From: Flavobacterium sp. N502540
Lineage (GTDB): Bacteria; Bacteroidota; Bacteroidia; Flavobacteriales; Flavobacteriaceae
NCBI RefSeq assembly: GCF_025947365.1
Contig: NZ_CP110012.1
Coordinates: 5,208,001 to 5,272,000 of the forward strand
DNA length: 64,000 nucleotides
Direction: 5' to 3'
Position 1 is the first letter of the stretch. Every line of letters starts with the position of its first letter. The notes beneath the pieces are model-generated. The model did not search any database. It was not told where the DNA came from and was given only the letters and a program-made list of their open reading frames with translations. The translations under genes were made by a program, and so were the position numbers. Positions 19,810-53,602 of the stretch are shown one piece after another.

Positions 19810-20610
19810 CTATTGTACATTATTATAATTAAGACTCGTACATTCGGCAAAACTAATATCAAAAATTTCTTTCAATTTATCACCATGATTGAGTATAAAA
19901 AAATGATTCCCTCTTAATATGTAGGAGTTAAAACCGGAAAATGTGTGCTTTCTCCAATTGTTTATCTGGTCTACATATTTCTCTGAGTTCCCCATTATGG
20001 CTACAATTGGGGCTTTTACAATCGTATTTTCAATGAAAAAATCTTCTTCTACTATTTTAAAATCGGCCTTAAGGATCGGCAATACAAAATCGAGCAGCTC
20101 CTTACTTTTTAATAATTCATCCGGTATACCTCCTAATTCGGTAAGCATACTGATAAAATCGTCACGTTCCAGATCGGATCTCTTTTTTTCTGTTGTAATT
20201 CCGGGTCCTGCATTACCGCTTACGATCAGACATTGAGGCGGAGTATTATTTTTCTCCAGTAAATCGGTTACTCCCAGGCCCAGAGACGAACCTAAACTGT
20301 GCCCGTAAACGATAAAAGGGTTCCCGTTAAGTTTATCTGTTATTTGCGAAAACAGATCCTTAACCGCTTCCGGATAGGAAGTCAATAGTTTTTCTTTGAT
20401 TCTTTTTCCTCTTCCGGGTAATTCCAGCGGTATCATTTCAAAATCGGTGCATAATGATCTCAGAAACTCGAATGAGTATATGCTGCCACCGGCGAAGTGT
20501 AATAAGAATAGTTGCTTTTTTTTCATCTGCTTTTTAATATTTGGTTCATGAGAATCTTCTTTAAAAAAATCAAAAGAAGGTTTCACATTGGTTATTCTGT
20601 TATGTCTCAA
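19810..20610 (-). CDS. Type II thioesterase (editing)
   Basis: A 266-residue stand-alone thioesterase of the GrsT/SrfD type that removes wrong or stalled groups from carrier domains. It has the family opening LFLLHFAGGS, the segment PLELPGRGKR, the nucleophile elbow GHSLG and the catalytic histidine in GNHFFI; the acid is probably in the MGNSEKYVD region. The first 28 residues before MKKKQLFLL are longer than usual, so the ATG at 20526 is an alternative start; I kept 20610 because it lies only 7 bases past the upstream stop, as expected in this operon. Confidence 0.92.
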   Translation of the reverse strand: MRHNRITNVKPSFDFFKEDSHEPNIKKQMKKKQLFLLHFAGGSIYSFEFLRSLCTDFEMIPLELPGRGKRIKEKLLTSYPEAVKDLFSQITDKLNGNPFIVYGHSLGSSLGLGVTDLLEKNNTPPQCLIVSGNAGPGITTEKKRSDLERDDFISMLTELGGIPDELLKSKELLDFVLPILKADFKIVEEDFFIENTIVKAPIVAIMGNSEKYVDQINNWRKHTFSGFNSYILRGNHFFILNHGDKLKEIFDISFAECTSLNYNNVQ

Positions 20611-32741: not shown

Positions 32742-34118
32742 TTAATTTATTATTCTGTTTTTATCAAATAATGTTCTGATGCTGTTCATTATATTGATCT
32801 GATGGTCGGTCATAGCATCTCCTAAATAGGGAAGGTTTATTTTACCAACTCCATGTTCGCCTGAAATGGTGCCTCCAAATTCCAGTGCTTTCAAAAAGAT
32901 CGCTTTTACCCAAATCGCCAAATTATCTTCCCATTGTTTTTTGGTGCTTTGTTTGTCCTGAAAAATATTGACATGAAAATTTCCATTTCCCACATGTCCA
33001 AAAACTGTGTATTCGAAATCATATTTTTGGGCTATCAGCGAAATTGATTTATACATTTTATCAATTTTAGAACGGGGCACCACAATGTCAATATCTCTGA
33101 AAAACACATGATGTATAACCGCTTCTCCAATTTTAGAACGCATTTCCCATAGCGTTTTAACTTCGTTTTGGGTATCCGCTATACTAATTTCTTCTTTTGT
33201 ATAAGTGCTGATAAACTCACTGATTTCAAAAGCTTGCTGCATCAGTTTTTCTGAATCTGTCCCTTCAAGTTCTATCCATAAAATGCCTTCAATTGCTTTT
33301 TGATGCCATTGCTTTTTATTTAAGAATTTCGAAGCCAGCTCTACTCCTTTCCGGTCAATAAATTCAATGCTTGAAGCATCGTATCCTTTTACAAAAAACT
33401 GCTGTACGCCTTCAAACAGCTCTTCTATTTTGGTAAAAGGAATCATGAGGAGCAGTTCTTTTACAGGGGGAACTAATTTTAATACGACTTTGGTAATGAT
33501 GCCCAGCGTTCCTTCGCTTCCTGCAAACAATTGGGTCAGATTATAACCGGTTGCATTTTTAGTTACATTTTTTCCGGTCCAAATGATACTGCCATCAGGC
33601 AAAACAATTTCTAAGTTGATGACATAATCTTTTGTGGTACCATATTTTAATGATTTTGGACTGCCGCTGGATACTGCTATATTTCCACCAATAAAACAAG
33701 CATTTGCGCTACTGATATTTTGCGGAAAATTTAAACCTTCTTCTAACACCGCATTGCGCAAATCCTGAGTGATTACTCCCGACTCTGTGGTAACAATTCT
33801 GTCTATTTTATTAATCTCAATGATTTTATTCAGCCGTTCCAGCGAAAGTATCAGACCGTTTGTATGAGATAATGCTCCCCTGCTGACTCCCGTACCACCA
33901 CCTCTCACGGTGATACTGGTCTTGGTTTCATTACAGATTTTAAGAATTTTCGAAATCTCTATTTCATCTTTTGGTAAGATTACTGCCGAAGGTATATTCT
34001 CTTCATCAGAAGTGCAGTCTCTTGAATAATTGTATAGCAGTTCAGCATTGGTTAGTACAAAATCAGCTCCCACTATTTCAATTATAGCATTAATAATATC
34101 AGTCTTGCAGCCTGTCAT
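32742..34118 (-). CDS. FAD-linked (GlcD/VAO-type) oxidase, probable 4-hydroxymandelate oxidase
   Basis: A 458-residue flavoprotein of the glycolate-oxidase GlcD / D-lactate dehydrogenase group. The FAD-binding PCMH domain covers about residues 35-215 (RGGGTGVSRG at 72-81, SGSPKSLKYG, ATGYNLTQLFAGSEG). The C-terminal domain carries the substrate and metal residues in GHVGNGNFHV and the closing motif SGEHGVG. It starts 5 bases after the hydroxymandelate-synthase gene, so translation is probably coupled. By context it should oxidise 4-hydroxymandelate to 4-hydroxyphenylglyoxylate. Known actinobacterial Hpg clusters use an unrelated FMN-type Hmo enzyme, so this would be a replacement. The fold is certain; the substrate is inferred. 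Confidence 0.85.
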   Translation of the reverse strand: MTGCKTDIINAIIEIVGADFVLTNAELLYNYSRDCTSDEENIPSAVILPKDEIEISKILKICNETKTSITVRGGGTGVSRGALSHTNGLILSLERLNKIIEINKIDRIVTTESGVITQDLRNAVLEEGLNFPQNISSANACFIGGNIAVSSGSPKSLKYGTTKDYVINLEIVLPDGSIIWTGKNVTKNATGYNLTQLFAGSEGTLGIITKVVLKLVPPVKELLLMIPFTKIEELFEGVQQFFVKGYDASSIEFIDRKGVELASKFLNKKQWHQKAIEGILWIELEGTDSEKLMQQAFEISEFISTYTKEEISIADTQNEVKTLWEMRSKIGEAVIHHVFFRDIDIVVPRSKIDKMYKSISLIAQKYDFEYTVFGHVGNGNFHVNIFQDKQSTKKQWEDNLAIWVKAIFLKALEFGGTISGEHGVGKINLPYLGDAMTDHQINIMNSIRTLFDKNRIIN

Positions 34119-34123
34119 CCGGA

Positions 34124-35242
34124 TTATATTTTATTGGAAAGTGTTAGTTCTTCCTCCATTGCTTCAAACAGAGCATAGATATTATCTAAACCAAATCCTT
34201 GATAATCATTTACTCTTTGTACTATTTCGTAGAAAAATGTAGCTCTGTCTCCAATTGGAGTTGTGAAGATTTGAAAGAGTAAGGCTCCTTCTAAAACATC
34301 ACATAATATCCCGTGTTTTTTTAGAGGTTCTACATCTAATTCAGGGTATTTGGTGGCTAATTTTTCATAATATGAATCCGGATATCTGGTAAATTTCACA
34401 CCCGAATCTCTCAATGCCTTTACTGATTTAATGATATTATTTGATTCAAAAGCAATATGCTGTATTCCGGTTCCGTAGTTTTGATCGATAAACAATTGAA
34501 CCTGGTTTTTTACTCCATGTTCCGGTTCAACCAAAACGTTATTGATGTTTTTATTACCGGATTGAAGCACTTTCAATAACATCCCGATTTTCTTTTCGCC
34601 TTTCACTTTTCTTTCGTCAAATTCGACTACCGTTTTAGAAAGGAAGATGTTGTTAAAATACTTTTCCCATAAATTGATTTCGTTAAGTCTTAAAGCGCAG
34701 GCTACGTGGTCAATTTTTTGCAGACCTGTATCTTCTCCTTCAAAGTTCCATTCGCTCTGTACATTTTTATATCCCGGAAGAAAGTCTCCATTGTAATTAT
34801 CATAATTGATAAGTACGATTTCGTTATCGTCAAACATTTTTAAAGATGCCTGTTCTACAAATCCATTTTCATCTGATGTTAAATGTGGATGTTCTACCGG
34901 AATTGCGCCATTTTTCATAGCTCTTTCGAAGAAATCCTTAACATTGTCAACGTTTATGGCCAGTCTTTTAATACCATTTCCATGAAGATCTACGAAAGAA
35001 ACTATTTTGTACGAACTAGGCTGTGATGCTGAGGTGATAACCAGTTTTATATCATTTTTCACGATGTAATACGAGCATCTGTCTAAAACACCTGTTTCCG
35101 GTCCGGCGTACGCTATCACTTCAAAACCTAGTGCTTTAACGTGCCAGAATACCACCATCTTGGCCATACCCACATAATACTCGACAAAATCGTACTCCAT
35201 ATTAAAAAAATCAGATACGATTATTTCATTGTTGTTTTCCAT
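34124..35242 (-). CDS. 4-hydroxymandelate synthase (HmaS), HPPD superfamily
   Basis: A 372-residue Fe(II) dioxygenase with the HPPD fold. Iron ligands are His179 (IDHVA), His262 (IQHIA) and Glu339 (FFYEI). It converts 4-hydroxyphenylpyruvate either to homogentisate (HPPD) or to 4-hydroxymandelate (HmaS). HmaS is favoured by three points. The C-terminal GNF of HPPDs is DNI here (Ile355), and Ile at this place is the recognised HmaS signature. The HPPD segment PINEP reads VLVEP (236-240), losing the Pro and Asn that HmaS also lacks. It also sits between an aminotransferase and an FAD oxidase inside an NRPS operon with two Hpg-type A domains. One oddity is Leu in the region where both enzymes usually keep a substrate-binding Ser (MLLKVLQS, 221-228), by my alignment. 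Confidence 0.87.
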   Translation of the reverse strand: MENNNEIIVSDFFNMEYDFVEYYVGMAKMVVFWHVKALGFEVIAYAGPETGVLDRCSYYIVKNDIKLVITSASQPSSYKIVSFVDLHGNGIKRLAINVDNVKDFFERAMKNGAIPVEHPHLTSDENGFVEQASLKMFDDNEIVLINYDNYNGDFLPGYKNVQSEWNFEGEDTGLQKIDHVACALRLNEINLWEKYFNNIFLSKTVVEFDERKVKGEKKIGMLLKVLQSGNKNINNVLVEPEHGVKNQVQLFIDQNYGTGIQHIAFESNNIIKSVKALRDSGVKFTRYPDSYYEKLATKYPELDVEPLKKHGILCDVLEGALLFQIFTTPIGDRATFFYEIVQRVNDYQGFGLDNIYALFEAMEEELTLSNKI

Positions 35243-35253
35243 TTTTATAGTTT

Positions 35254-36573
35254 TTATTGGTTTCTTACTTTTGATTTTATAAACTCAGACAATCTTTCAA
35301 TTCCGTTTTTTATTTCTTCTGAAGTGACATTACTAAACGCCAGTCTCAATTCATTTTCGCCTCCTTTGTCCATGTAGAAAAATGACATGGGAGTAAAAAT
35401 CACTTTATTGACTTCTGCACATCTTATGACATCTTCCTTAGTAATTTCGAAAGGGACTTTAACGATCAGAAAAAAACCTCCTGCAGGCGAATTCCAGCTA
35501 ATACTTTCTGCCCACGATTGTGTTTGTTTATTAAAAAAGTGATTCAGACTTTCGAGAAGCTGATCTCTTTTTTCTTTCATTCCCGCTCTTTTTTCTGCAT
35601 TTAAGGATTCGAGTGAGAATTCATTCTTCAATAATAAACCGCCAAACATGGCTTGCATAATAGACGGGGTATTTACGGTTACATATCCTTTTGTTTTGGC
35701 CATTAAATCACTTAAGGCAAATATTTTACCCTGTACATTCACTTTCTGTGTGACCACCATCAGACACAAGCGCAAAGACGGATATATGGTTTTTGAAAGA
35801 GATCGCAAATAGATTACATTGTGGTTTTGATCCAGCGATTTTAACGTGGGCATTTTATCCTTTTCATAATAAAAATCACCATAAGCATTGTCTTCGAATA
35901 TTACAAAATCATACAAACGGGCTAATGCCAAAAGCTGGCGTCGGTTTGCCAAAGACATGCTGTTTCCTGTCGGGTTCTGAAAATCGGGAATAACATAAAC
36001 CACTTTTACTTTTTTTCCTTTTTTCTGATGCTCCAGAATTTTCTCTTCGATTGCTTTTATGGAAGATTCATCTGCTATAACCGGAATACTTTCGATTTTG
36101 TAATCGTTGATTTTAGCAAAATGTGTAATTCCAATGTAAGCGGGATCTTCAACCAGAATAACATCATTTTCCCGATCGCATAGTGTTGTAATCCCAATAG
36201 AAATAGCTTCTTGCGCACCTACTGTGATAAGGATATCTTCAGGAGCTGCTTTTATAGATTCATCAAGGAGCAAGTATTTTGAAACTTCTTCATTTATGAT
36301 TCCTTTAGTCCTGTTGTACTGACCGAGATTTTCTAAAACTATATTTTCTTCAAGTCCTTTTTCACGAGCACTATTTTTCACAAAATAATCCAGACATTCA
36401 GAGAATTGTTCGATTTTGAAATATTTAGCGTCCGGTCTGCCTGATGCAAACGAAATTGCATTCGGATATTGCAACTGAACTTCATTTAAAAATCCCATCA
36501 CATCTTCTCCCATAGAGAACAACAAGGGATTGACAACATCGGCTGACGGTTGCGAAATTATTTTTTCAATCAT
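35254..36573 (-). CDS. PLP aminotransferase (HpgT-like)
   Basis: A 439-residue class-I fold aminotransferase of the ARO8/MocR-C-terminal kind, without the DNA-binding domain of MocR regulators. Lys261 in SLSKTIYPSLR binds PLP; IPDFQNPTGNSMS and FEDNAYGDF hold the cofactor contacts, and a final Arg in ELRLAFSN binds the carboxylate. HpgT of glycopeptide clusters is of this family; it makes Hpg from 4-hydroxyphenylglyoxylate, using tyrosine as amino donor, which regenerates 4-hydroxyphenylpyruvate for HmaS. It lies 11 bases before the HmaS gene start and 56 bases after the LLM-NRPS gene. A general aromatic aminotransferase is the alternative. Confidence 0.85.
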   Translation of the reverse strand: MIEKIISQPSADVVNPLLFSMGEDVMGFLNEVQLQYPNAISFASGRPDAKYFKIEQFSECLDYFVKNSAREKGLEENIVLENLGQYNRTKGIINEEVSKYLLLDESIKAAPEDILITVGAQEAISIGITTLCDRENDVILVEDPAYIGITHFAKINDYKIESIPVIADESSIKAIEEKILEHQKKGKKVKVVYVIPDFQNPTGNSMSLANRRQLLALARLYDFVIFEDNAYGDFYYEKDKMPTLKSLDQNHNVIYLRSLSKTIYPSLRLCLMVVTQKVNVQGKIFALSDLMAKTKGYVTVNTPSIMQAMFGGLLLKNEFSLESLNAEKRAGMKEKRDQLLESLNHFFNKQTQSWAESISWNSPAGGFFLIVKVPFEITKEDVIRCAEVNKVIFTPMSFFYMDKGGENELRLAFSNVTSEEIKNGIERLSEFIKSKVRNQ

Positions 36574-36629
36574 TTCTGAATCTTTTAAAGGGTTATTTGA
36601 TTTTAATTTTAGAAAAGGAAAAGGATGTT

Positions 36630-39600
36630 TTAAATATTAAATTTTTCGTACTCCACTTCATCAACCTCATCCATCTGTTTGACTAATTTTTCTACCTCAA
36701 TCGAAAAAGAAGCTATCGTAAGCTGATGCAATAAAGTCAGAGACACTGGCGGTATACCGAATTTTTTGTAGATTTCATTTTTCATTTTTGCAAGCTTTAA
36801 ACTGCTTCCCCCCAGAAAAAAGAAATTATCGTTTACACTTATTTCTTCTAATTTTAACAGCTCTTTCCAAATCTCCGTTAACTGCTTTTCGGTCTCATTC
36901 CTCGCCAATACAAAAGTGTTTTGACCGCTTATTTTATCATTTTTAAGAAGACGTAATTTTTTAATATCGGCTTTTCCGTTTACCGTCACCGGAATCTTCT
37001 TTATGGTCATAAATTTTTCAGGAATCATATAGTCCGGTAAATAGCTTTTCAGGAACGTTCTTAGGGTTACATAATCTATTTTTTCATCACTATTCAGATA
37101 GGCTGTCAATTCTTTTTCACCATTTTCAGCTTCATTCAATAACAGTATTGCTTTTTTTACGGACAGATATCTTTCCAGAACATTTTCGATTTCTTTTAAA
37201 TCGATACGATAGCCTCTAATTTTTATCTGACTATTTTTTCGTCCCATATATTTTAAAGTCCCATCCGGTAGCCATTTTACTAAATCACCCGTTTTGTATA
37301 ACAAATCGCCCATTTCCGGATCAACAGTATTAGGAACAAACGCTTGGGATGAAAGTACTTTATCATTAAAATAGCCTAACGCAAGTCCGCTTCCTGCAAT
37401 GTAAAGCTCTCCGACGGCGCCCTGAGGCATTAGCATTTTTTCTTCAGACAAAACATACAATCCTGTATTAGCAATTGGTTTTCCAATGTTTACAATATCA
37501 TCTTGTTCTAAGAATTGTAAACTGGAGATGATTGCCGTTTCTGTTGGCCCATAAAGATTCCAGATACCGGTAGCGGTTAATTCAACCAATTTATTTTTCA
37601 GTTGTTGGTCCAGATCTTCTCCTGCTGCCATAACAACCAGGTTTTCTGTATTTTTCCAGCCTGCATCCAGAAGCATTTTCCATCTTGTAGGCGTTGTAAG
37701 CATGTGACTTACTGTATTTTCCTTTAAAAATTTATTCAAATGGTAAATGTCCTTTCCTTGCTCTTCGCTGGTCATTACAACCTGTCCGCCAGTGGCTAAA
37801 GGAAGGAAAATTTCCAAGAGTGAAATATCAAATATGAGAGGGGTAACCGCTACAAATTTTATGGTTTGATCTAATGCCAGTTTCTGAATTAAGGAAACCG
37901 TTACATTTTCAAGCGAATGATGACTGATCATTACTCCTTTTGGCTTTCCTGTTGACCCTGAAGTAAAAATAACATACGCTAAATCACTTGGATCTATTTC
38001 TACAGCTTCAAAAATACCTTCAGTGACATTGGGAACTTTATGAATATCAATTTTTACTATTTCGGAAGAAAAAAGACTCATATTTTCTTTCTGAGCTACC
38101 AGCAATTCTGGATTTACTTCGTCTATAATCTGAGTAATTCTTCGGTTTGGAAAACTGGAATCAATTGGTAAAAAAGCAGCTCCGGTTAACAAAATACCCA
38201 AAATACCTACTAATTGATCAACAGAACGGTTGATGCACAATGGAATAATCATTCCTTTTTTGGCTCCCTTAGATTGTAAGTAACGGGCAAGATCTTCTGA
38301 TTTTTGGTAAAGCGCTTCATAGGTTAGAGATGAAACAGCGTCAGAAACAGCAGTTTTACCCGGATGCAGCAGGTATTGTTCTTTAAAAAGCTTTATTACA
38401 GAATTCTGAGTATTCTTTCTGATGTTATGCTTTTTAATTCCGCCAACCTCTTTTTGTACAGCGTTAAAAGAATCTTTTAATTTTGTAATTTGAGGTAATC
38501 CTTCCAGAACGCTTGTTTTATCAATACCAAAATCAATTAAGCAGGCAATTTCATTTACTCCTGATTTTGCGGCTTTATCCAGTATCGGCAGACTGCTTTC
38601 TAAATTCCCGATAAGACAACTTTCTTTAAAATATTTGCTAACCGAAAAGTCCAGTAATTCTTCAATCGATTTTTCTGTTATGTTTTGAAGTAACGGATCG
38701 TTCTCATTTTCCAAAACCTCTTTTCCACTCATTTCGATCGACTTTAGCAGGTATTTTTTCATGGATGGTCTTGCCTTTTCCTGAGCTTTCTCTACCGTTT
38801 CATCTAGATAAGTGTGCAGCATGAGTACTACTCTGTCACCGCCTTTTTTGTGGTTATTCTCTTTGTACGCCTTTCTGTACACCGCAATTTTTTCCTCCAG
38901 CTCTGCAAAAGTGATGTTTAATAATCCAGTCAAAATTCCTGCTCCTATTTCACCTGCTTTTTGATAGGTTTCTACATTTCCTGCGCAGGCAATCCAAACC
39001 GGAAGTTCTTTCTGAACAGGCTTTGGCAATATTTTAAAAGATTTTTCTATAGCATCAACTCCTTTAAAATTTACCGAATTTCCTGCCCAAAGAGAATGAA
39101 CTTCTTCTATCGTATGGAATAAAACATTCTTTCTGTCTTTAAAATTTTCAGGGTAAAAAACGAAGTCATTACTATTCCATCCTGAGGCAAAACAGATCCC
39201 CACTCTTCCACCTGAAATATTATCGATTACTGACCATTCTTCGGCTATTCTGATGGGATGATGAAGTCCTGCAACTACGCTTCCTGACCTGATTCCTATA
39301 TTTTTGGTTCTTGCTGCAATTGCTGCCCCTAAAACACTTGGATTTGGAAAAGGTCCGCCAAACTCATTAAAATGTCGTTCGGGTGTCCAGATTGCACTAA
39401 AACCATTAAGATCTGCATAAGCCGCTCCTACCATTACGATTTCATACTGATTGTCTTCTGTTCCTGTATTTCCAAAATAATAAAGACCAAAATCTAACGT
39501 TGCACGGCTATCAGTAACTTTTTTCTCCGTTAGAACCACACTTGATTCATTCCTGCTCCATGCTGTGATTCTTTCTCGTTCAACAGGGTCAATACTTTCC

Positions 39601-41150: not shown

Positions 41151-41270
41151 TTCGATTTAAGTAGATAGAATAAGGTGCCCTAAGAATATTTTACAATTCT
41201 TTTGGTTTAGATTTATGGGACTAAAGGGTTCAATGCTATTTTTTATGCTATTCTGGCATTGCCATTTGGG

Positions 41271-43982: not shown

Positions 43983-44008
43983 TTGAATTTACTTTATTGA
44001 GATACTTC

Positions 44009-47000
44009 TTAATTTATTTGCTCCTTCTTTTTTAATATTGACATGGTCTGATTTACTATGCTCACAGACTTTGAATTCTTCTCGTCTACTTTTTCAAGAT
44101 TGGGTTCTACATCTTGTGTGATATGATTGGTAAGTGCTTCTATATTGCTAAACTTAAATGCGTTGAGTACTTTTAAGTCTATATCCAATTCTTTATTGAT
44201 TACCCGAACCATTTTCATAAGAGAAATGGAATTACCTCCAATTTCAAAAAAATTATCCTGTATGCCTATATTTTCATTGCCCAGGATTGTTTTCCAGATG
44301 TTCAGTATTTTTGCTTCCAACTCGGTTTTAGGCAAAGTATACTGTTCGCTTTTGGTGGTTTGCTGACCTAAACGCAATAGCGCTTTGGCATTTGTTTTTC
44401 CATTGATCAGGATCGGAAATTCGTCTACCCAAATTATTTTTGAAGGAATCATGTACAAAGGCAATTTTTGCTGCAGGTATTTTCTTAATTCCCTTTCCTC
44501 CAGTTTTTCAGCTCCTGTATAAAAAGCAAGTATTCTTTTTTGATCTTCATTTTGATTGTCCGCTAAAACTATGGCCTTTTTAATTGTTTCATGTTCCTGA
44601 AGCGCCATTTCGATTTCACCAAGCTCTATACGATATCCGTTTAATTTAATCTGACTGTCTTTTCGGCCTATGAATTCAATAACTCCATCAAAATTCCAGC
44701 GCGCTAAATCACCCGTTTTATAAAGTTTCTTTCTTGAAAAGAAATCAGTCATAAAAACTTCTCTTCCTCCGCCTTCATTATTTAAATATCCGTTCGCCAC
44801 TTGTTCTCCCGCAATACAAATTTCTCCGGGAACTCCTATTGGCACCAGATTATTTGCTGTATCCAGGAGGTATATTTTCGAGCCTTTATTAGGTATTCCT
44901 ATCAGTTGCGGATTGTAACTTTTCTGTTTCTTCAAATAAGTTTGTCCGGTTATAAAAATGGTTCCCTCAGTAGGTCCGTAAAGTACATGAATAGAAGCAT
45001 TAGGAAATATCTTAAATAAATCTTCCAAAGTTTCGTTGGAAGAAGCTTCTCCTCCCATAAATACTTTTGCAACATGTGAAAAACGATCTGCAATGTCAAA
45101 ATCAATAATATAATCCAGCAATTGCCTCATTAAAACCGGTACGGCATGAAAGGCATTGATCTTTTCAATTTCTTTGTTCAAAAGTGCAAGATCTTGTATC
45201 GTCTCAGAACTTAATACCGTGATGGTACCGCCTATGGCTAAAGGATAAAAAACTTCGAAGAAAAAAATATCAAAGGAGTTTGAGGCTAAAACCGGAAAAT
45301 GTGCCTTGCTATCTGTGCCGAATTTTTTTCTGCAATTGGCCAAAAGAACACTAAAATTCTGATGCGTAACCATAACTCCTTTCGGCTTTCCTGTAGACCC
45401 TGAGGTATAGATGGTGTACGCTATTTGAGAAGGTTTTATTTCTATGTTTATCGCATCATTATGCTGAGAAGAGTTTTCAAATTCTTTGATCGTATCTTCA
45501 TGAACTACCAGCACACACTGACTGCTTTCTACTATGATTTTTTTTCTTTCTTCCGGAAAATGAATGTCAATTGGAACATAAACAGCACCCAATTTAAAAA
45601 TGGCCAAAATGGTTACGATTAACATTTCTGATCTCTCTAATGCTACTGCAACAAAATCATTCTCTTTTATGCCACAATTCTGAATGAGGTAATGCCCAAG
45701 TTTATTGCTTTTTTCATCTAATTCCTGATAACTAAGGGATTCTCCATTATACTTTACAGCCGTTTTATTTGGATGTTTTAAGACCTGTTTGGAAAAATAA
45801 CAGATGATGTTATTATTGGCTGTAATCTCAAAAGTCTCTCTGTTGAAATCAAAGAATAATCTGTTTCTTTCTTCTCCTGCTACTAAATCAATTTCAGAAA
45901 ACAAACTGTCCGGATTTTCGAGAACCTGAAGGTAAATATGCTCAAAACATTTTTTTAAGTTTTCTATAAACTCACGACTGTATTTTTGTGCATTATAGGT
46001 AAACCTTAATACGGTATCGATCCCCGGAACTATAGCCAGCGAAAAATTATAATTCGTTTTTTCGAATGCTTCTACAGCTGCTACTTGTAAAGTGTCCTGA
46101 GCCGAATTAACCAGCTCGTCTTCTTCGTATTCCTGCGACGGGTAATTTTCATAAACAACCAAAGTATCGAACAACTGTTGTCCTAAATTACTCTTGGATT
46201 GTATTTCTGCCAGTTGGATATAATGATTCGGAATACTTTTTATAGCGTCTTTTTGAGTATCAATCAAGATATTCTTTATTGTTTCTTCTGACTTAAATTT
46301 TATCCTTACCGGAATCGTATTAATAAAAAGCCCCAACATTTCTTCTATTCGCTCTACTTCTGAAGGTCGGCCCGAAACTACACTCCCAAAAACAACATCA
46401 TCCGTATCATTATATTTGGCAAGGAGTATTCCCCAAATGGTCTGAATAAAAATATTCTCCGTAATCCCTAGTTTTCGGCAGAGTGCTGTAACCGAATCTT
46501 TATTTTTTCCAGCCAGGGTATAAAATATTTTACCTTCCTCTTCCTGGCTGTTTTGATTTCCGGGGTTAAAGAATGGAATTCCGGTATTGGTTTCAAATCC
46601 GGAAAGATATTCTTCCCAATAAGCCGCTATACCTTTTTTATCCAATTGCATTAGCCACTTGCTGTATGCTGAATAACTTGGCGGTGGCGGTAACTTGATC
46701 CCCTGACCTGCCAATAAACATTTGTAGACGTAAAAAAAATCCTTTATTAGGAGCTCTATACTCCAGCCATCTAAAATAATGTGATGGTAACTCCAGATAA
46801 ACTCAAATACATTTTCCTTCAGCTTGATAACTGTGAGTCTTATTTGTGAGCCTTTGTGAAGATTAAATCCTTTTTTTTGATCTGATTTTTTGAAATTTTC
46901 CAGAGAAAAATTTTCATTGGTACTCTCATCCAGATAATAAAAACCGGAAGGAACACTATCCAATACCACTTGTAAAATATCGTTTACGGTAGTGTTGTTA

Positions 47001-47185
47001 AAACAAGTTCTTAGTGCATCGTGCCTTGACACTAAAAAATCAAATGTTTGTTGTAATAATTCAACCTCAACTTTCCCATAAATGTGATAGCAGGATTGTT
47101 CAAAATACTCATTTTCTGAAACATGCCAGCGGAAAAAAATTCCTTCCTGTAATGGGTTCAGTGCATATATTTCTTTAATTTTCAT
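44009..47185 (-). CDS. NRPS, C-A(Hpg)-T
   Basis: A 1058-residue single module: C domain (1-430, HHIILDG), A domain (450-940), carrier (IGGNSIS near 1000). Pocket residues read D-I-F-H-F-G-L-I-F, differing from the classic Hpg code D-I-F-H-L-G-L-L-C only by conservative or outer changes. With the Hpg cassette about 8 kb downstream, activation of 4-hydroxyphenylglycine is strongly suggested. The N-terminus MKIKEIYALNPLQEGI resembles DCL-type C domains and COM-type acceptor ends, and is almost the same as that of the next protein to the right. It ends 26 bases before the PKS gene. No epimerase is present. Confidence 0.93.
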   Translation of the reverse strand: MKIKEIYALNPLQEGIFFRWHVSENEYFEQSCYHIYGKVEVELLQQTFDFLVSRHDALRTCFNNTTVNDILQVVLDSVPSGFYYLDESTNENFSLENFKKSDQKKGFNLHKGSQIRLTVIKLKENVFEFIWSYHHIILDGWSIELLIKDFFYVYKCLLAGQGIKLPPPPSYSAYSKWLMQLDKKGIAAYWEEYLSGFETNTGIPFFNPGNQNSQEEEGKIFYTLAGKNKDSVTALCRKLGITENIFIQTIWGILLAKYNDTDDVVFGSVVSGRPSEVERIEEMLGLFINTIPVRIKFKSEETIKNILIDTQKDAIKSIPNHYIQLAEIQSKSNLGQQLFDTLVVYENYPSQEYEEDELVNSAQDTLQVAAVEAFEKTNYNFSLAIVPGIDTVLRFTYNAQKYSREFIENLKKCFEHIYLQVLENPDSLFSEIDLVAGEERNRLFFDFNRETFEITANNNIICYFSKQVLKHPNKTAVKYNGESLSYQELDEKSNKLGHYLIQNCGIKENDFVAVALERSEMLIVTILAIFKLGAVYVPIDIHFPEERKKIIVESSQCVLVVHEDTIKEFENSSQHNDAINIEIKPSQIAYTIYTSGSTGKPKGVMVTHQNFSVLLANCRKKFGTDSKAHFPVLASNSFDIFFFEVFYPLAIGGTITVLSSETIQDLALLNKEIEKINAFHAVPVLMRQLLDYIIDFDIADRFSHVAKVFMGGEASSNETLEDLFKIFPNASIHVLYGPTEGTIFITGQTYLKKQKSYNPQLIGIPNKGSKIYLLDTANNLVPIGVPGEICIAGEQVANGYLNNEGGGREVFMTDFFSRKKLYKTGDLARWNFDGVIEFIGRKDSQIKLNGYRIELGEIEMALQEHETIKKAIVLADNQNEDQKRILAFYTGAEKLEERELRKYLQQKLPLYMIPSKIIWVDEFPILINGKTNAKALLRLGQQTTKSEQYTLPKTELEAKILNIWKTILGNENIGIQDNFFEIGGNSISLMKMVRVINKELDIDLKVLNAFKFSNIEALTNHITQDVEPNLEKVDEKNSKSVSIVNQTMSILKKKEQIN

Positions 47186-47338
47186 AGATTAGATAAGGGG
47201 CTTTATGTATCGTATTGAAATTTGCAGCAATGACAGGACTGCACAAAGGGCACGAATTTTAAAACGAAGAAAAAATCTGTGACAATCCGGCCAATCGCTA
47301 TGCGCTGCAGCTTATTTATTTTAAGATTTTATGTTTCA

Positions 47339-50300
47339 TCAAATTGTGATATTCTCATTTTCAACATCTTCAAGTTCTTCGTTATTGACCCAAATCACAT
47401 TGTCAATTTCATTCGCTAAACTCTCTACAGTTGGATTGTTGAACAAATCGGATATTGCAAGTTTCACCTCAAATTCATTATTGATAAGGTTAAACATTTT
47501 TACAGCTTTTAAACTGTGTCCGCCTAAATCAAAGAAGTTATCTCTTAGTCCTATTTTTTCTATTTCTAAAACATCTTCCCATATTTTAACCAGTGTTTTT
47601 TCGGTAGTGGTATCAGGAGCAACATACTCTTCACGTTCTGTTTCCAAGCTGGTAATTTCCGGAAGTTTAGCTCTGTCTATCTTTCCATTGATGTTTAACG
47701 GAAATTCCTGTAAAAAGACAAAATGATTCGGAATCATGTATTTTGGCAACTGGGTTCTAAGCCAGTTTTTTAAAGAGTTACTTTCTAAATCATCATCTGT
47801 AATGACATAGGCAATTAATTTTTTTTCAGCTGCCGTGCCGTCTGTTATAACAACCAATGAAGAAAATATGGATTGGTGCGTGCATAAGATATTTTCGATT
47901 TCTCCGAGTTCTATTCGGTACCCTCTTAATTTTACCTGATTGTCTTTTCTTCCAATAAATTCTATTGTATTGTTATTAGTCCATCTTCCTAAATCACCCG
48001 TTTTGTAGAGTCTTTCCGCTGTTTTGTAAGGGTTTTTTATGAATTTTGAATGGGTTAGTTCGGCATTGTTCAGATAACCTCTCGCGAGACCATCACCTCC
48101 TACGCATATTTCACCAATGGCTCCTTTAGGTACCAGCTGATGGTTTTTATCCATAATGTAAACCGTACTATTACTTATCGGAACACCTATGGGAACGGAG
48201 GTTTTGATCGGTAAGTCAATGGTATGGGTTATCGAAAATGTTGTGTTTTCCGTAGGCCCATAACCATTGACGACTACTAATTCAGGATAAGTACTTTTGA
48301 GTTTCGTAATATGGTGGGGAGACAAAACATCTCCTCCGCATACTATTGTTTTTAAGTTTTTGAATAAGATGAGGTTTTCGTCTACCAACTGATGTAACCA
48401 GCCGGCGGTAAACCACATTATAGTAACTTTTTCATTTGCAACGACTTCGTTCATCCCTCTTACTGATAATAGGGTGTTTTCGTCGCAAATAACCAGAGTG
48501 CCTCCATTTAAAAGCATTCCCCAATACTCGAAAGTACTGGCATCAAACGAAAAAGCTCCTGTAGCCAGTAATACTTCTTCTCCGGTTAGGTTTATAAAAT
48601 TGGTATTTTTAACCAGTCGAACAACGCTTTGCTGTTCTATTAAAACTCCTTTTGGTTCTCCGGTAGAACCTGAGGTGTACATGACATAAGCCAGATCATT
48701 TGCTTTCGCGTAGGTACTTTCAAACTTAGAAGAATAATCCGTTTGTGATTTTACAAAATCTTCTATCAGATCTGCTGCAATCAAACATTCGGCATTAGCA
48801 TCTTTAATGATGTAACTGATTCGTTCCTGAGGATAATCAGTCGAAATAGGTACATAAGCACAACCCAATTTTAACAGGGCCAAAATACTTATGATCTGCC
48901 ACTCGTTCTTTGGCAGATAAATGGCTGCCAGATCTCTTTTTATTTTGTAATTCTCTTCTAAATAATTGGCCAACTGATTGGCAACATTATTAAGTTCCTG
49001 ATAAGTGTATCTCTGTTTTTTGTATACGAGAGCTGTTTTTTCGGGTGTCAGGGCAGCCTGCTTTTCAAACAATTCTATAATCGATGCTTCCTTCGGGTAA
49101 TCGGTTTGATGACCGTTTATTTCTTCCAGTAAATGTTGCTTTTCGGCCTGTGTCAGACAATCGATAGCGCTTATCTTTTGGCCTCCGTTTAGGGTAACCT
49201 GTACTAGTATTTGCTCTAAATGATTAAGCAATGAAGTGATTTTTTCTGAAGAGAATATATCGGTGTTGTATTGTAAGCTTAGCGTAAGTTTAGATTCCGT
49301 TATTAAAAAATCAAACGTTAAATCAAATTTGGCACTTACCCCGTTTCCAACCACATCAATAATAGTATCATAAGTTGCTGCATCTGAAGGCTCATTATTT
49401 TCTTCTCTGGCCGTAACTACGATGTCAAACAAAGGGTTTCTGCTGGCATCATACTTAATATTCAGGAGCTTAATTAACTCATCGAGTGGAAATTTTTGGT
49501 ATTCTTTGGCGTTGATTACATTTTCTTTTATTTGTTTTAAAGTTTCTGTAAACGAAGCGTTTTCATCTAAATGAGTTCGCAATGGAATTGTATTGGCATA
49601 AAATCCAATCTGATCAAACAATTCGGGATAATCACGGTTTACAATCGGGCTTCCTGTAATGATATCCTGATCGCCGGTATTTTTATAGATAAGAATATTG
49701 GTTACGGCTAAAAAGACCATGAAGAGCGAAACTTCTTCGTTTTCACACAACGTATTTAAATCTTTTAAAATATTGCCTTTTAAAACTTTTGAAATCACTC
49801 CGCCATTATGGGTTTTAATATTGGGTCTTTTTTGATCTCCCAATTCACTCAGGATTGGCAAATTGCCTTCAAATTGTTTCAACCAGTAATTTTTATCCGC
49901 TTCAATGGCATCGCTTTTAATCATGCTTTGCTCCCACACAGCATAATCCTTAAACTGTATGGCTAATGGCGGTAAAATAATGTCTCTTTTTTCGTTGTAC
50001 TTTTCATATAAGGCGTACAGCTCTTTTACAAAAACATCTGTTGACCATCCGTCAAAAATGATATGGTGAAAAATGATGCCGATGATCCATTTGTCGTCTT
50101 TAACGCTTATCAATGCCGCTTTCATCAAAGGAGGTGTTTCTAAATTAAAAGAGACATCGCCAGTTTCTATAAGTGCTTTTTGCAAATCTTTTTCTAAGGT
50201 TTCGCTATTGCGCAAATCCAAATACTGGATTTTTAACGGTTCGATTTTTTGGATCGGAATGATAATTTGTCTTGGTTCACCACTTTCATTTGTAATAAAA

Positions 50301-53300
50301 GCAGTTCTTAAAACTTCATGTCGTTCTAATAAGCTGTTCAATGCCTTAGTAAAAGATTCTACGTTTACAGGTTTATTTTTAACGTCTATTATCCTGATAT
50401 TGTAAGCCTTATTAGCCTGAGTATCTATAGAACATATATTGTACATTCTGTATTGAGAAGACGATAAAGGGTAACTCTCTGCTATTTCTGCATTAGGGAT
50501 CGATAACGTATAACCGTTTTTAGCACTATCAATAAATACAGCCTGCTGCTCTATGGTAGGATGAATGTAAATTTCCTTGATATTGAGATGCATGCCAAAA
50601 TTCACAAAAATCTGATTGGACAGTTTAATCATTTTCAGACTGTGTCCGCCTAAATGGAAAAAATTGTCCTGAATTCCGATTACTTTGCGATCCAGAATAC
50701 GCTGCCATATTTCTGTTAGTTTTATTTCGGTATCCGTTACGGCCTGAACGTATTCTACTTCTCTTATTGCATTGGCATCTAACGGATTTGGCAGTTTTTT
50801 CGCATCTAGTTTTCCGTTTACAGTTAGCGGAATCTCATCTAATTGGATGTAGTAATCCGGAATCATAAAGGAAGGCAGTATACCTTTCAGAAATTGAATC
50901 AGCTCTTGCGTATCCATTGGTTTTGTGGCCTTTAAGTAGGCTACAATTTCTTTTTCATCACCTGAAACTGTGATTGTTTTCACAACAGCAAAATCTACCT
51001 GTTCATTCGACAATAGAGCATTTTCTATTTCTTCCAACTCTATTCGATATCCTCTAACTTTAACCTGATTGTCTTTTCTGCCTACAAATTCTATTTTACC
51101 ATTTGCAAGTCTTTTAACCATATCGCCTGTTCTATAAAGCTTTTCATCAGCCTTAAAAGGGTTTACGATAAATTTTTCGGCCGTAATTTCTTCTTTATTC
51201 AAATAACCTCTTGTTACCTGATTTCCTGAAATACATAATTCTCCTATGCTGTAAAACGGACATAGTTTTAAATGATCGTCCAATACATAAGTTGCGTTAT
51301 AGGCATTACTTTGTCCTATTACCGCATTTGGAAATTGCTTTACGCTTGGCAAATAACTTTCGGACGTGATAAAAATCGATCCTTCAGTTGGTCCGTACAG
51401 CACGTTTATGACAGCATTGACAAATACTTCTCTTATTTCTTCGAGAATTCCGACAGGTATTTTGTCTCCTCCAATAAAAATCGATTCTATATGATGGTAG
51501 GATTGCTGGCTTTTGTTTGTTTTTATATGATCGATAACCGCTCTCATTAGCGTTGGTACGGCATGAAAACTATTTGTTTGTCTGAGAATTTTGGAGAGAT
51601 CCTCCATGTCTTTTATTTCCTCGTTGGGTACCATCACTACTTTTCCTCCTGCTAATAGGGGATAAAACAATTCGAAAAGAAAAATATCAAACGAATTGGA
51701 TGCCAGCAAAGGCATTACGGGTTTTTGAGAAATAACAAAACGGTTTTTTGTATTGACTAGTAAAGCACTGATACTTCTATGCTCTACAAGTACTCCTTTC
51801 GGTTTTCCTGTTGACCCCGAAGTATAGATAAGATAGGCTAAATCGGATGGGGAAATGATCGCTTTTGATACCGTCAAATTGGCCTTTGGATATTCTCTGA
51901 AACGATCGATAAAATCCTCATTAATAATAATCGAACTGTTGGTATCTTCCAAAATATAATCTACCCTGTCCTGTGGCAAATTAATATGCAGAGGAACGTA
52001 TACAGCACCGGCTTTTAAAGTTCCTAATAAGGCAACAATAAGCCAGTCGCTTCGGTCCAGCTGCAATGCAATAAAATCTCCGGACTGTACTTTATGTTCT
52101 GATATTAGAAAAGCGGCAAACTGATCTGCCAGTACATTTAATGCTCCAAAGCTGTACTGTGCTTCCCCATACACTAAAGCAATATGATCCTGATTTTCCT
52201 TCACAACATTTTCAAACAGTTCGACCAAAGTATATTCGGGAGAAATCTCTTTCAACATATCGTGACCGGATAAAGACAACACTGCTTCTTTTTCTGATTC
52301 TTTTAGAAGTTCTACTTCCGAAATCGCAATATCAAAGTTTTCTACTACAGTGTTTATGACTTGTTCGAAATGAGCCTTAAGCGCTATAATAGCCTCTTCT
52401 TTATATTTTTCGGCATTAAAAGTAAAACGGATACTGATTTCTTCTCCGGGAATAATTGCGAGTGAAAAATCATAGTTCTCTCCTTCGTATAATTCCGTTT
52501 CCAGCAGTTTAATATTTGTTTTTTCGTTGTCGGCCAGTTCATTGGCTACAACTTCGGCAGTCATATAGTTTTCAAAAACAATGATGTGATCAAACAAAGA
52601 CTGATTGTTGTTTACGCTTCTTTGTGTATCACTAATCGCCTGGTAATGATAAGGTAAACTTTTTATGGCCTGCTCCTGTGTCTGCAATAAGATTTGTTTT
52701 ACCGTAGTCTGACGGTCAAATGAAATCCTTACCGGAATTGTATTTATAAAAAGTCCTATAATATTGGCCACGTCATAAATCTCAGCAGGTCTGCCCGATA
52801 CTACTCCGCCAAAAACCACATCATTTGTATTGTTGTACTTCGCCAGTAAAATTCCCCAAATCGTCTGAAAAAAGACATTTTCGGTAATACTATTCTCCTG
52901 ACAGAAAACGGCCAGTTTTTCTCTTAAACTTCCGCCAATGGTATAGAATATTTCTCCCGGTGTAAAAGTTTCCGTATTTTGTTTTGGAAAGGGTAACGTA
53001 TTTAAGCCCTGAAACCCCTCCAGATAACCGTTCCAATATTGCAATGATTTTTCTTTGTCATTCTTCATCAGCCATTTTACATAGTCTGAATACGGGGTTG
53101 CTTTAGGTAAAATGTTCTTTTTTCCCTGAAGCAAGCCTTCATAAAGTGCAAAAAACTCACCAATTAAAATGCTTATACACCAACCGTCCATAATAATGTG
53201 ATGATGGCTCCAAATTAGTTCATACTGGTTTCCACTCGTTTTTAAAACGGTCAGCCGCATCTGTGAACCTGTAGCAAGGTCAAAGCCTTTTGCAATATCC

Positions 53301-53602
53301 TGCTCTTTTACAGCTGCAATCGTTTCAGTTGTATTTCCGGTGATGTCCAGATACGTAAAATTTGAAGGTACTTCGTTTTGAACAATCTGTAAAAGATCTT
53401 CGCCCACATTATCCCGAAAACAAGTTCTGAGCACATCATGTCTTGCAATCAGCTGATCGTAACTTTCCTTAAGATAGTTGATATCCAATTCAGCTTGTAT
53501 TTTATAAGATGACTGTTCAAAATACATTGATTTAGAAAGTTTCCAATGGAAATAAATTCCTTCCTGCAATGGCGTTAACGGGTATATATCTTTAATTTTC
53601 AT
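47339..53602 (-). CDS. Bimodular NRPS: C-A(Hpg)-T-C-A(Val)-T
   Basis: A 2087-residue synthetase. C1 (1-430, HHHIIMDG), A1 (450-950), T1 (about 1000, LGGHSLK), C2 (1050-1480, HHIIFDG), A2 (1500-1990), T2 (about 2045, LGGHSLK). A1 reads D-I-F-H-F-G-L-I-F, the same Hpg-like code as in the neighbouring single module. A2 reads D-A-F-W-V-G-G-T-F, a Val-type code. C1 opens with MKIKDIYPLTPLQEGI, a DCL-type start that fits the D-Thr made by the preceding protein, whose C-terminal tail looks like the matching COM donor. The acidic C-terminus ends ENENITI. The gene lies 19 bases from the preceding NRPS gene. Confidence 0.94.
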   Translation of the reverse strand: MKIKDIYPLTPLQEGIYFHWKLSKSMYFEQSSYKIQAELDINYLKESYDQLIARHDVLRTCFRDNVGEDLLQIVQNEVPSNFTYLDITGNTTETIAAVKEQDIAKGFDLATGSQMRLTVLKTSGNQYELIWSHHHIIMDGWCISILIGEFFALYEGLLQGKKNILPKATPYSDYVKWLMKNDKEKSLQYWNGYLEGFQGLNTLPFPKQNTETFTPGEIFYTIGGSLREKLAVFCQENSITENVFFQTIWGILLAKYNNTNDVVFGGVVSGRPAEIYDVANIIGLFINTIPVRISFDRQTTVKQILLQTQEQAIKSLPYHYQAISDTQRSVNNNQSLFDHIIVFENYMTAEVVANELADNEKTNIKLLETELYEGENYDFSLAIIPGEEISIRFTFNAEKYKEEAIIALKAHFEQVINTVVENFDIAISEVELLKESEKEAVLSLSGHDMLKEISPEYTLVELFENVVKENQDHIALVYGEAQYSFGALNVLADQFAAFLISEHKVQSGDFIALQLDRSDWLIVALLGTLKAGAVYVPLHINLPQDRVDYILEDTNSSIIINEDFIDRFREYPKANLTVSKAIISPSDLAYLIYTSGSTGKPKGVLVEHRSISALLVNTKNRFVISQKPVMPLLASNSFDIFLFELFYPLLAGGKVVMVPNEEIKDMEDLSKILRQTNSFHAVPTLMRAVIDHIKTNKSQQSYHHIESIFIGGDKIPVGILEEIREVFVNAVINVLYGPTEGSIFITSESYLPSVKQFPNAVIGQSNAYNATYVLDDHLKLCPFYSIGELCISGNQVTRGYLNKEEITAEKFIVNPFKADEKLYRTGDMVKRLANGKIEFVGRKDNQVKVRGYRIELEEIENALLSNEQVDFAVVKTITVSGDEKEIVAYLKATKPMDTQELIQFLKGILPSFMIPDYYIQLDEIPLTVNGKLDAKKLPNPLDANAIREVEYVQAVTDTEIKLTEIWQRILDRKVIGIQDNFFHLGGHSLKMIKLSNQIFVNFGMHLNIKEIYIHPTIEQQAVFIDSAKNGYTLSIPNAEIAESYPLSSSQYRMYNICSIDTQANKAYNIRIIDVKNKPVNVESFTKALNSLLERHEVLRTAFITNESGEPRQIIIPIQKIEPLKIQYLDLRNSETLEKDLQKALIETGDVSFNLETPPLMKAALISVKDDKWIIGIIFHHIIFDGWSTDVFVKELYALYEKYNEKRDIILPPLAIQFKDYAVWEQSMIKSDAIEADKNYWLKQFEGNLPILSELGDQKRPNIKTHNGGVISKVLKGNILKDLNTLCENEEVSLFMVFLAVTNILIYKNTGDQDIITGSPIVNRDYPELFDQIGFYANTIPLRTHLDENASFTETLKQIKENVINAKEYQKFPLDELIKLLNIKYDASRNPLFDIVVTAREENNEPSDAATYDTIIDVVGNGVSAKFDLTFDFLITESKLTLSLQYNTDIFSSEKITSLLNHLEQILVQVTLNGGQKISAIDCLTQAEKQHLLEEINGHQTDYPKEASIIELFEKQAALTPEKTALVYKKQRYTYQELNNVANQLANYLEENYKIKRDLAAIYLPKNEWQIISILALLKLGCAYVPISTDYPQERISYIIKDANAECLIAADLIEDFVKSQTDYSSKFESTYAKANDLAYVMYTSGSTGEPKGVLIEQQSVVRLVKNTNFINLTGEEVLLATGAFSFDASTFEYWGMLLNGGTLVICDENTLLSVRGMNEVVANEKVTIMWFTAGWLHQLVDENLILFKNLKTIVCGGDVLSPHHITKLKSTYPELVVVNGYGPTENTTFSITHTIDLPIKTSVPIGVPISNSTVYIMDKNHQLVPKGAIGEICVGGDGLARGYLNNAELTHSKFIKNPYKTAERLYKTGDLGRWTNNNTIEFIGRKDNQVKLRGYRIELGEIENILCTHQSIFSSLVVITDGTAAEKKLIAYVITDDDLESNSLKNWLRTQLPKYMIPNHFVFLQEFPLNINGKIDRAKLPEITSLETEREEYVAPDTTTEKTLVKIWEDVLEIEKIGLRDNFFDLGGHSLKAVKMFNLINNEFEVKLAISDLFNNPTVESLANEIDNVIWVNNEELEDVENENITI

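Follow-up and report, generated by a model that had tools for sequence, protein, structure and literature searches.

A probable arylglycine cassette within a nonribosomal peptide synthetase cluster of Flavobacterium, and its possible route through (R)-4-hydroxymandelate

The window analysed here is a 64,000-nucleotide stretch (contig NZ_CP110012.1, positions 5,208,001 to 5,272,000) of Flavobacterium sp. N502540, whose genome consists of one contig of 5.41 Mb. Three adjacent genes in it probably form a dedicated arylglycine cassette, with 4-hydroxyphenylglycine (Hpg) as the most likely product, serving two nonribosomal peptide synthetase (NRPS) modules whose adenylation (A) domains carry the specificity code DIFHFGLIF. 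We favour this assignment because of diagnostic residues in the synthase, a separate 4-hydroxyphenylpyruvate dioxygenase (HPPD) in the same genome, an HpgT homologue in the cassette, a conserved gene order, the co-occurrence of cassette and DIFH-type A domains, and the codes DAFHLGLLC and DAYHLGLLC in Streptomyces loci. Antibiotics of the vancomycin class and of the ramoplanin and nocardicin types contain Hpg as a key residue; the known biosynthetic route to it comes, to our knowledge, from Actinobacteria.

The cassette and the neighbouring NRPS genes all lie on the minus strand. In the order of transcription, the cassette comprises an HpgT-type, pyridoxal phosphate-dependent aminotransferase (35254-36573; PF00155, Aminotran_1_2), an Fe(II) oxygenase of the glyoxalase/HPPD superfamily resembling hydroxymandelate synthase (HmaS; 34124-35242), and a GlcD/D-lactate-dehydrogenase-type FAD oxidase (32742-34118), the proposed 4-hydroxymandelate oxidase. 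The spacers measure 11 and 5 bases, and the nearest NRPS genes lie 56 bases (36630-41150) and 64 bases (22274-32677) away on either side; further NRPS genes continue beyond the window as far as roughly position 5,287,379 of the genome. A preliminary description of this DNA had reported a three-gene unit with these gaps between NRPS genes, comprising an aminotransferase, an HPPD-superfamily enzyme with HmaS marks and an FAD oxidase, and two A domains (44009-47185 and the first of 47339-53602) reading D-I-F-H-F-G-L-I-F. Coordinates, families, residues, similarity to a Streptomyces HpgT candidate and a structure-based code alignment, all detailed below, bear these points out.

In the pathway that we propose, the HmaS-like enzyme would convert 4-hydroxyphenylpyruvate and O2, by decarboxylation and benzylic hydroxylation, into 4-hydroxymandelate, probably the (R) form, which the FAD oxidase would take on to 4-hydroxyphenylglyoxylate. 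The aminotransferase would then aminate this glyoxylate, probably with tyrosine as donor, regenerating 4-hydroxyphenylpyruvate; HpgT uses tyrosine as its amino donor. The two DIFHFGLIF A domains would load the product at two modules. The gene order and its conservation, the family memberships, the diagnostic residues and the co-occurrence with an A-domain type are observed; the substrate of every step, the stereochemistry, the amino donor and the loading by the A domains are inferred.

The synthase was compared with its relatives in an alignment of 24 HPPD, 12 actinobacterial HmaS and 24 cassette-clan rows. (L- and G-numbers are our working labels for the loci and genomes compared, and gene calls in the high-GC loci are rough; L073, L211 and L233, where the wrong open reading frame (ORF) was taken, and L204, which has no row, were left out of the residue readings.) The window synthase keeps the iron ligands H179, H262 and E339. 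At its positions 238, 236, 223 and 355, where all 24 HPPD rows have Asn, Pro, Ser and Phe, it carries Val, Val, Leu and Ile. The actinobacterial HmaS rows have Ile, Leu or Val at 238, Thr at 236 and Ile or Val at 355, and the cassette-clan rows Val at 238 and Ile or Val at 355. Ala181 is common to every HmaS and every clan row, and Phe265 to 10/12 and 23/24, respectively, as well as to one HPPD row, L074. Sites 223, 236, 238, 265 and 355 align with Ser201, Thr214, Ile216, Phe244 and Ile335 of the A. orientalis enzyme (AoHmaS), and Val238 and Ile355 stand at Asn241 and Phe364 of human HPPD. O'Hare and colleagues are said to have found, in 2006, that a Phe-to-Ile exchange at the latter site switches HPPD to HmaS. 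The reaction of AtHPPD needs a Ser-Asn-Gln-Gln network, its N282A variant being about 160-fold less efficient (PMC6750108). In the window this network reads Leu, Val, Gln, Gln: the Ser and Asn are lost, and both Gln residues and the C-terminal Asn are kept.

An ordinary HPPD lies elsewhere in the genome (C1:1371548-1372708, L038), separated by one small ORF from a homogentisate dioxygenase gene and 37% identical to the window synthase. An IQ-TREE analysis of the 60 rows yielded three clans: the window type (24 rows, 100/100), actinobacterial HmaS (12 rows, 100/100) and HPPD (24 rows, 96/87). The tree places the window synthase in a third deep clan, outside that of actinobacterial HmaS; since it is unrooted and has long branches, it does not decide whether the HmaS reaction had one origin or two.

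Judged by similarity, the aminotransferase is an HpgT homologue: it shares 38% identity over 410 residues (271 bits) with the HpgT candidate of the S. angustmyceticus hmaS-hmo-aminotransferase locus, and 33-37% with the aminotransferases adjoining hmaS in seven other Streptomyces plasmid loci. The third gene departs from that precedent. Its product has the domains FAD_binding_4 (PF01565) and FAD-oxidase_C (PF02913) with the motifs H-x-G-x-G-N-x-H and EHG, unlike the Hmo proteins of S. angustmyceticus and L077, which are FMN_dh (PF01070); a profile scan of the unit, the rest of the genome not having been searched for FMN_dh, found no Hmo of this kind in the cassette. The best match among solved chains is LctD (7qh2), the other leading ones being a glycolate oxidase, a putative oxidoreductase, D-2-hydroxyglutarate dehydrogenase and D-lactate dehydrogenase, and the score on the GlcD equivalog (321.6) is well below the cut-off of 567.9. 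Beyond the window oxidase itself, a homology search of the genome returned partial matches and no further full-length homologue. In the oxidase tree, the window protein clusters with the other four cassette oxidases sampled from Flavobacterium (100/99); the tree does not decide the branching of the Bacteroidota cassette oxidases relative to one another and to the housekeeping GlcDs. Three Streptomyces FAD oxidases fall together with LctD and four of the housekeeping GlcDs (97/97, subject to a long-branch warning), on which ground the Streptomyces and Bacteroidota oxidases were likely recruited separately.

The cassette and its DIFH-type A domain recur in Bacteroidota and are not a one-off. A scan of the genome collection for the synthase returned 23 loci. 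The near clan contributes 17 rows, the window included, from 16 genomes of Flavobacterium, Kordia, Hymenobacter, Chitinophaga and unplaced Bacteroidota metagenome-assembled genomes (MAGs), one Kordia having two cassettes. Aminotransferase, synthase and oxidase follow one another in order in 13 of these rows, and the aminotransferase adjoins the synthase in all 17; the L048 cassette ends at a contig edge. The synthase is rare, occurring in 3/299 family genomes (by identity, 65-100%), in 3/101 genus genomes (at E 1e-100) and in 2/395 phylum genomes, once 12 further matches were recognised as HPPDs. These 12 Bacteroidota matches, at 389-430 bits, were rejected as cassette synthases by their residues. 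Three of them were viewed together with their neighbours, and in two (L190 and L192) the adjacent gene looks by eye like a homogentisate dioxygenase. DIFH-type A domains were read in 11 of the 16 cassette genomes, and an A domain of similar look, DIFDFGMVF, in two Hymenobacter cassette genomes. Across the 101 genus genomes, a profile of the DIFH domain scores 488-562 bits in exactly the three with the synthase. In five other genus genomes, matches at E <=1e-90 score no higher than 334 bits, and those read or viewed include no DIF-type domain; this cut-off is tight, the DIFH domains of L146 and L153 scoring 307 bits, so that distant ones in the 98 other genus genomes could escape it.

Variants of the cassette were also seen. 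The Hymenobacter loci L045, L046, L131 and L133 have no oxidase in the cassette and carry the related DIFDFGMVF domain, with His replaced by Asp at position 278; the Hymenobacter genomes hold two GlcD homologues elsewhere, at 39-42% identity. A second, divergent set of aminotransferase, synthase and FAD oxidase occurs in MAGs of Flavobacteriales, Bacteroidota and Saprospira (L058-L061), with identities to the window proteins of 25-27%, 39-41% and 27-28%, respectively, and Met at the Ser201 site in 4/4; in L058, a phosphopantetheinyl transferase gene (PF01648) and an NRPS with the code DLFNHAWTY come after the set.

A-domain codes were read by alignment to 1AMU PheA, itself reading DAWTIAAIC. 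Position 278 demands care, as its column slips (to V, A, T or S) if DIFH-type domains are aligned alone and reads H once diverse A domains are included; by eye, the place of His at 278 falls three residues ahead of Pro in most other A domains aligned. The L091 domain, for example, reads DAFLLGLLC in a small set and DAFHLGLLC in a diverse one, and only diverse-set codes were relied on. Domains were found by a motif pattern that can miss some: 5 of 74 were without the end motif, L106 (of 20 loci) yielded none, and neither did L139, L140, L164 and L182, three of which were then checked by eye and are not DIF-type. In transcription order, the cluster reads DLYNNALTY (twice), DGFFLGVTF, DAFWLGGTF, DVWHISLID, DASTVAAIC, DFWNIGMVH, DIFHFGLIF, DAFWVGGTF and DIFHFGLIF, then a ketosynthase (KS)-carrier protein and DILLMALII with an embedded luciferase-like monooxygenase (LLM); after the cassette come DAFWLGGTF, DSALTAEVW and DAEDVGSVS with a thioesterase (TE) and, further downstream, DILQLGMIW. 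The first DIFHFGLIF domain in this order is the first A domain (about 51197-52216) of a C-A-T-C-A-T protein (condensation, A and thiolation domains; 47339-53602) whose second reads DAFWVGGTF, and the other belongs to a C-A-T protein (44009-47185; AMP-binding part about 44783-45796). Of the A domains read, 2 of 15 in the cluster carry this code, against 0 of 22 from the genome's two other NRPS regions, an enrichment that exceeds chance.

As reference for the Hpg code we used DIFHLGLLC, a string that was not found in the open-access literature searched. Against this code, DIFHFGLIF is equal at 6/9 positions and differs at 299, 330 and 331; other A domains of the window's cluster match at four positions at most. 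At least six matches were found in 21 of 164 distinct A domains, all 21 from genomes or records bearing HmaS, in a sample biased toward such genomes. Two Streptomyces HmaS-Hmo-HpgT loci have Hpg-like codes, DAFHLGLLC in L091 and DAYHLGLLC in L077. With the L091 domain the window A domain shares 31% identity, and with Bacteroidota A domains of other codes as much as 40%, which points to an Hpg-like code acquired separately from the actinobacterial one. An Acidobacteriota genome with an HmaS-like gene (G299, L143) has a DIFHTGDVM domain in a very large NRPS, and in the related Flavobacterium loci L041 and L042, the LLM module at the equivalent place carries a DIFHYGLIF domain; arylglycine may also be loaded at that module in loci of this type.

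The S204V exchange in SyHMAS of Streptomyces yokosukanensis inverts the product of an (S)-selective wild type to >99.9% (R)-hydroxymandelate (Robinson et al., PMC7225752), an inversion repeated in PMC12822336. SyHMAS positions 204, 219 and 338, the three selected by Robinson et al., would be equivalent to AoHmaS 201, 216 and 335, since each number is three higher, which fits the alignment; the Ser201 site is Leu223 in the window. It is non-Ser (Leu, Met, Ile or Thr) in 23/23 loci, many closely related, whose synthase adjoins an FAD oxidase, and Ser in 6/8 loci with an FMN oxidase; within Streptomyces, Ser stands in 5/5 FMN loci and 0/3 FAD loci. A further five loci, in which no oxidase was found next to the synthase, are non-Ser as well (Leu in L044-L046 and L048, Thr in L075). 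These counts leave out 3zgj, presumably an S221M V223F Y359A variant, which has non-wild-type residues at the sites used; 2r5v and 7yvv, whose neighbours were not read; and L221/L222 (L241/L242), Acidobacteriota loci with Ser at the site, an HpgT-like gene and NRPS, in which no oxidase was found with the queries used. An approximately unbiased (AU) test rejects a single clade of the Streptomyces FAD rows and the Bacteroidota-type synthase rows (p 1.5e-7), and the pairing of FAD oxidase and non-Ser residue therefore arose twice on that tree.

From the Leu at the Ser201 site, the S204V inversion, the non-Ser trend among FAD loci and the D-lactate and D-2-hydroxyglutarate dehydrogenases among the solved relatives of the oxidase, we propose with moderate confidence that the cassette runs via (R)-hydroxymandelate. 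More tentatively, and rating it somewhat less likely than not, we suggest a mirror-image pathway as a whole: the third-clan synthase would make (R)-4-hydroxymandelate, a D-specific GlcD-type FAD oxidase would replace the (S)-specific FMN Hmo, the product would be loaded by A domains with an independently arisen Hpg-like code, and oxidase class and stereo-determining residue would have switched together at least twice, in the Bacteroidota clan and in a Streptomyces subclade.

Several observations weigh against the reading of the three genes as an Hpg cassette with an (R) intermediate. Overall similarity favours HPPD for the synthase, with 176 bits to S. avermitilis HPPD vs 140 bits to A. orientalis HmaS. 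The cassettes of L044-L046 have no oxidase, the aminotransferase and synthase genes being followed by an NRPS gene, and in 3/16 cassette genomes (the drafts G302, G311 and G314) no DIF-type domain was among the top A-domain matches read. The code is off at three positions, and its pocket residues are bulkier than those of the Hpg code. Six other Streptomyces HmaS loci, including three with an FAD oxidase, had no A domain with at least five Hpg-code matches in the stretches covered, and may make or use something else. A Microscillaceae MAG (L055, 8710-11170) and an Acidobacteriota MAG (L056, 1745-4251) have an HmaS-like gene with an FAD oxidase and neither an HpgT homologue nor an NRPS in the short stretches covered, both near a contig end; perhaps they put 4-hydroxyphenylglyoxylate to a different use. 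As to stereochemistry, two gammaproteobacterial loci, L219 with Ile and L220 with Val, combine a non-Ser synthase with an FMN oxidase, so that the residue at the Ser201 site does not strictly follow the oxidase class. The tree, which was built without these two, offers no more than two independent pairs, too few for a test (sign test p 0.5).

Four rival explanations differ in weight. That the HPPD-like gene encodes an ordinary catabolic HPPD making homogentisate is scarcely credible: identity to Bacteroidota HPPDs of about 35-40% and a TIGR01263 score of 275.6 bits, barely below the equivalog cut-off of 277, would fit it, yet that near miss leaves the HPPD threshold unreached, Phe364 is lost together with the network's Ser and Asn, an HpgT homologue adjoins the synthase in 17/17 near-clan rows, and the genome has its separate HPPD near homogentisate dioxygenase. 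We rejected this candidate on the diagnostic residues and that separate gene. We consider it very unlikely, too, that the cassette makes an arylglycine and the DIFH domains load something else. The codes are correlative, and the DIFH domain of L041 and L042 sits also in an LLM module whose window counterpart reads DILLMALII; however, synthase and DIFH domains occur in the same 3/101 genus genomes, and no other A domain read in the cluster exceeds four matches to the Hpg code.

Two further alternatives concern the product and the intermediate. The cassette could make L-phenylglycine (Phg) from phenylpyruvate, which we regard as improbable. The Ser201 site, Leu in the window, corresponds by alignment to Ser221 of S. 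coelicolor Hms, which lies near the substrate para position in docking, and that enzyme accepts phenylpyruvate (PMC3720870); S204V raised the mandelate titres of SyHMAS 3.1-fold (PMC7225752); and the DIFH domains have Phe or Tyr at 299 and Phe or Val at 331, where the Hpg code has Leu and Cys. SyHMAS S204V nevertheless still yielded hydroxymandelate (PMC7225752), and six of nine code positions equal the Hpg code. The Asn that binds the para-hydroxyl in AtHPPD (PMC6750108) is also kept, but it is kept in all properly aligned rows. Alternatively, the same product might be reached via (S)-4-hydroxymandelate, as in Actinobacteria, with an FAD oxidase accepting the (S) form. This is unlikely in our estimate, if less so than Phg. 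S. coelicolor Hms (PMC3720870) and wild-type SyHMAS (PMC7225752) are (S)-selective, and in L219 and L220 a non-Ser synthase stands beside an FMN oxidase from the same family as the (S)-specific Hmo, called L-4-hydroxymandelate oxidase in PMC11376024. Against an (S) route stand the inversion of SyHMAS by a single Ser-to-Val change at the site (PMC7225752), the 23/23 FAD-oxidase loci that are non-Ser, and the relatives of the oxidase, which, by the molecule names of the solved matches, act on D-hydroxyacids.

Compared with the actinobacterial Hpg pathway (HmaS, Hmo and HpgT/Pgat), the cassette shares the synthase superfamily and proposed reaction, a homologous aminotransferase, clustering with NRPS genes and an Hpg-like A-domain code. 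It differs in its GlcD-type FAD oxidase in place of an FMN Hmo, in a synthase that has Leu at the Ser201 site and belongs to a deep clan of its own, and in the distance of its A domain from the Streptomyces DAFHLGLLC domain (31% identity). By families and tree placement, it would work like that pathway but is not a member of it, since the unit has no Hmo and its synthase falls outside the HmaS clan. The Streptomyces plasmid loci L064, L065 and L078 likewise combine HmaS, HpgT and an FAD oxidase with a non-Ser residue at the Ser201 site; their synthases, however, belong to the actinobacterial clan, their oxidases are 27-29% identical to that of the window and group with LctD and housekeeping GlcDs, and the stretches covered held no Hpg-like code. 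An aspartate/glutamate-racemase-family gene is annotated beside two of the three. HPPD has in common with the window synthase its superfamily, iron ligands and substrate class; the latter is without equivalents of Ser226, Asn241 and Phe364 and does not lie beside homogentisate dioxygenase. GlcD, D-lactate and D-2-hydroxyglutarate dehydrogenases share both domains and the active-site motifs with the window oxidase, which differs in falling far under the GlcD equivalog cut-off and in its place in an NRPS cassette.

The preliminary description had gone further in holding that the locus makes its own Hpg and builds it in twice. An arylglycine route, very likely serving two modules, stands, its product being more probably Hpg than Phg; the code equals the Hpg code at six of nine positions. 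Its HmaS-Hmo-HpgT set has to be amended, given the FAD oxidase in place of Hmo in the unit and the position of the synthase outside the actinobacterial HmaS clan. It knew of no such system in the phylum, and we too found no report of Hpg biosynthesis in Bacteroidota in the open-access literature. Formadicins, which are nocardicin-like and Hpg-bearing, were reportedly isolated from Flexibacter, and the Hpg residue itself may thus have been seen earlier in the phylum. If our assignment is true, the route in Flavobacterium, Kordia, Chitinophaga and Hymenobacter would open a Gram-negative source of arylglycine-bearing peptides, and the code DIFH[FY]G[LF][IVL][FV] together with the three-gene marker could serve genome mining. 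It would also provide a natural (R)-hydroxymandelate synthase, described only as a mutant in the open-access literature searched; this stereochemical prediction hinges on one residue.

The remaining genes of the cluster are likewise all on the minus strand. Upstream of the DIFHFGLIF modules lie the 3' part (60094-63963) of a larger NRPS gene that runs off the window (whole ORF L009 94-6606; codes DVWHISLID and DASTVAAIC), a CmlA-type diiron beta-hydroxylase (58439-60055; PF18456), and a TubC_N-C-A-T protein (53622-58376; DFWNIGMVH) with a second condensation-family domain, an epimerization domain by eye and not by profile. The KS-carrier protein (41271-43982) lies mid-line and has no acyltransferase profile match at E 1e-5; it is followed by the TubC_N-C-LLM-A-T protein (36630-41150; DILLMALII), whose embedded monooxygenase is of the MupA family. 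After the cassette come a TubC_N-(C-A-T)x3-TE protein (22274-32677; DAFWLGGTF, DSALTAEVW and DAEDVGSVS), a second CmlA-type diiron beta-hydroxylase (20618-22246; PF18456), a stand-alone (type II) thioesterase (19810-20610; PF00975), an ATP-binding cassette transporter of the cyclic-peptide-export type (14966-16600; TIGR01194 above cut-off) and a further C-A-T-C NRPS (9931-14361), assigned by domain profiles and by code alignment (DILQLGMIW). Elsewhere, gammaproteobacterial HmaS-like genes lie by an FMN oxidase (L219/L244 and L220/L245), with no NRPS in 16-20 kb.

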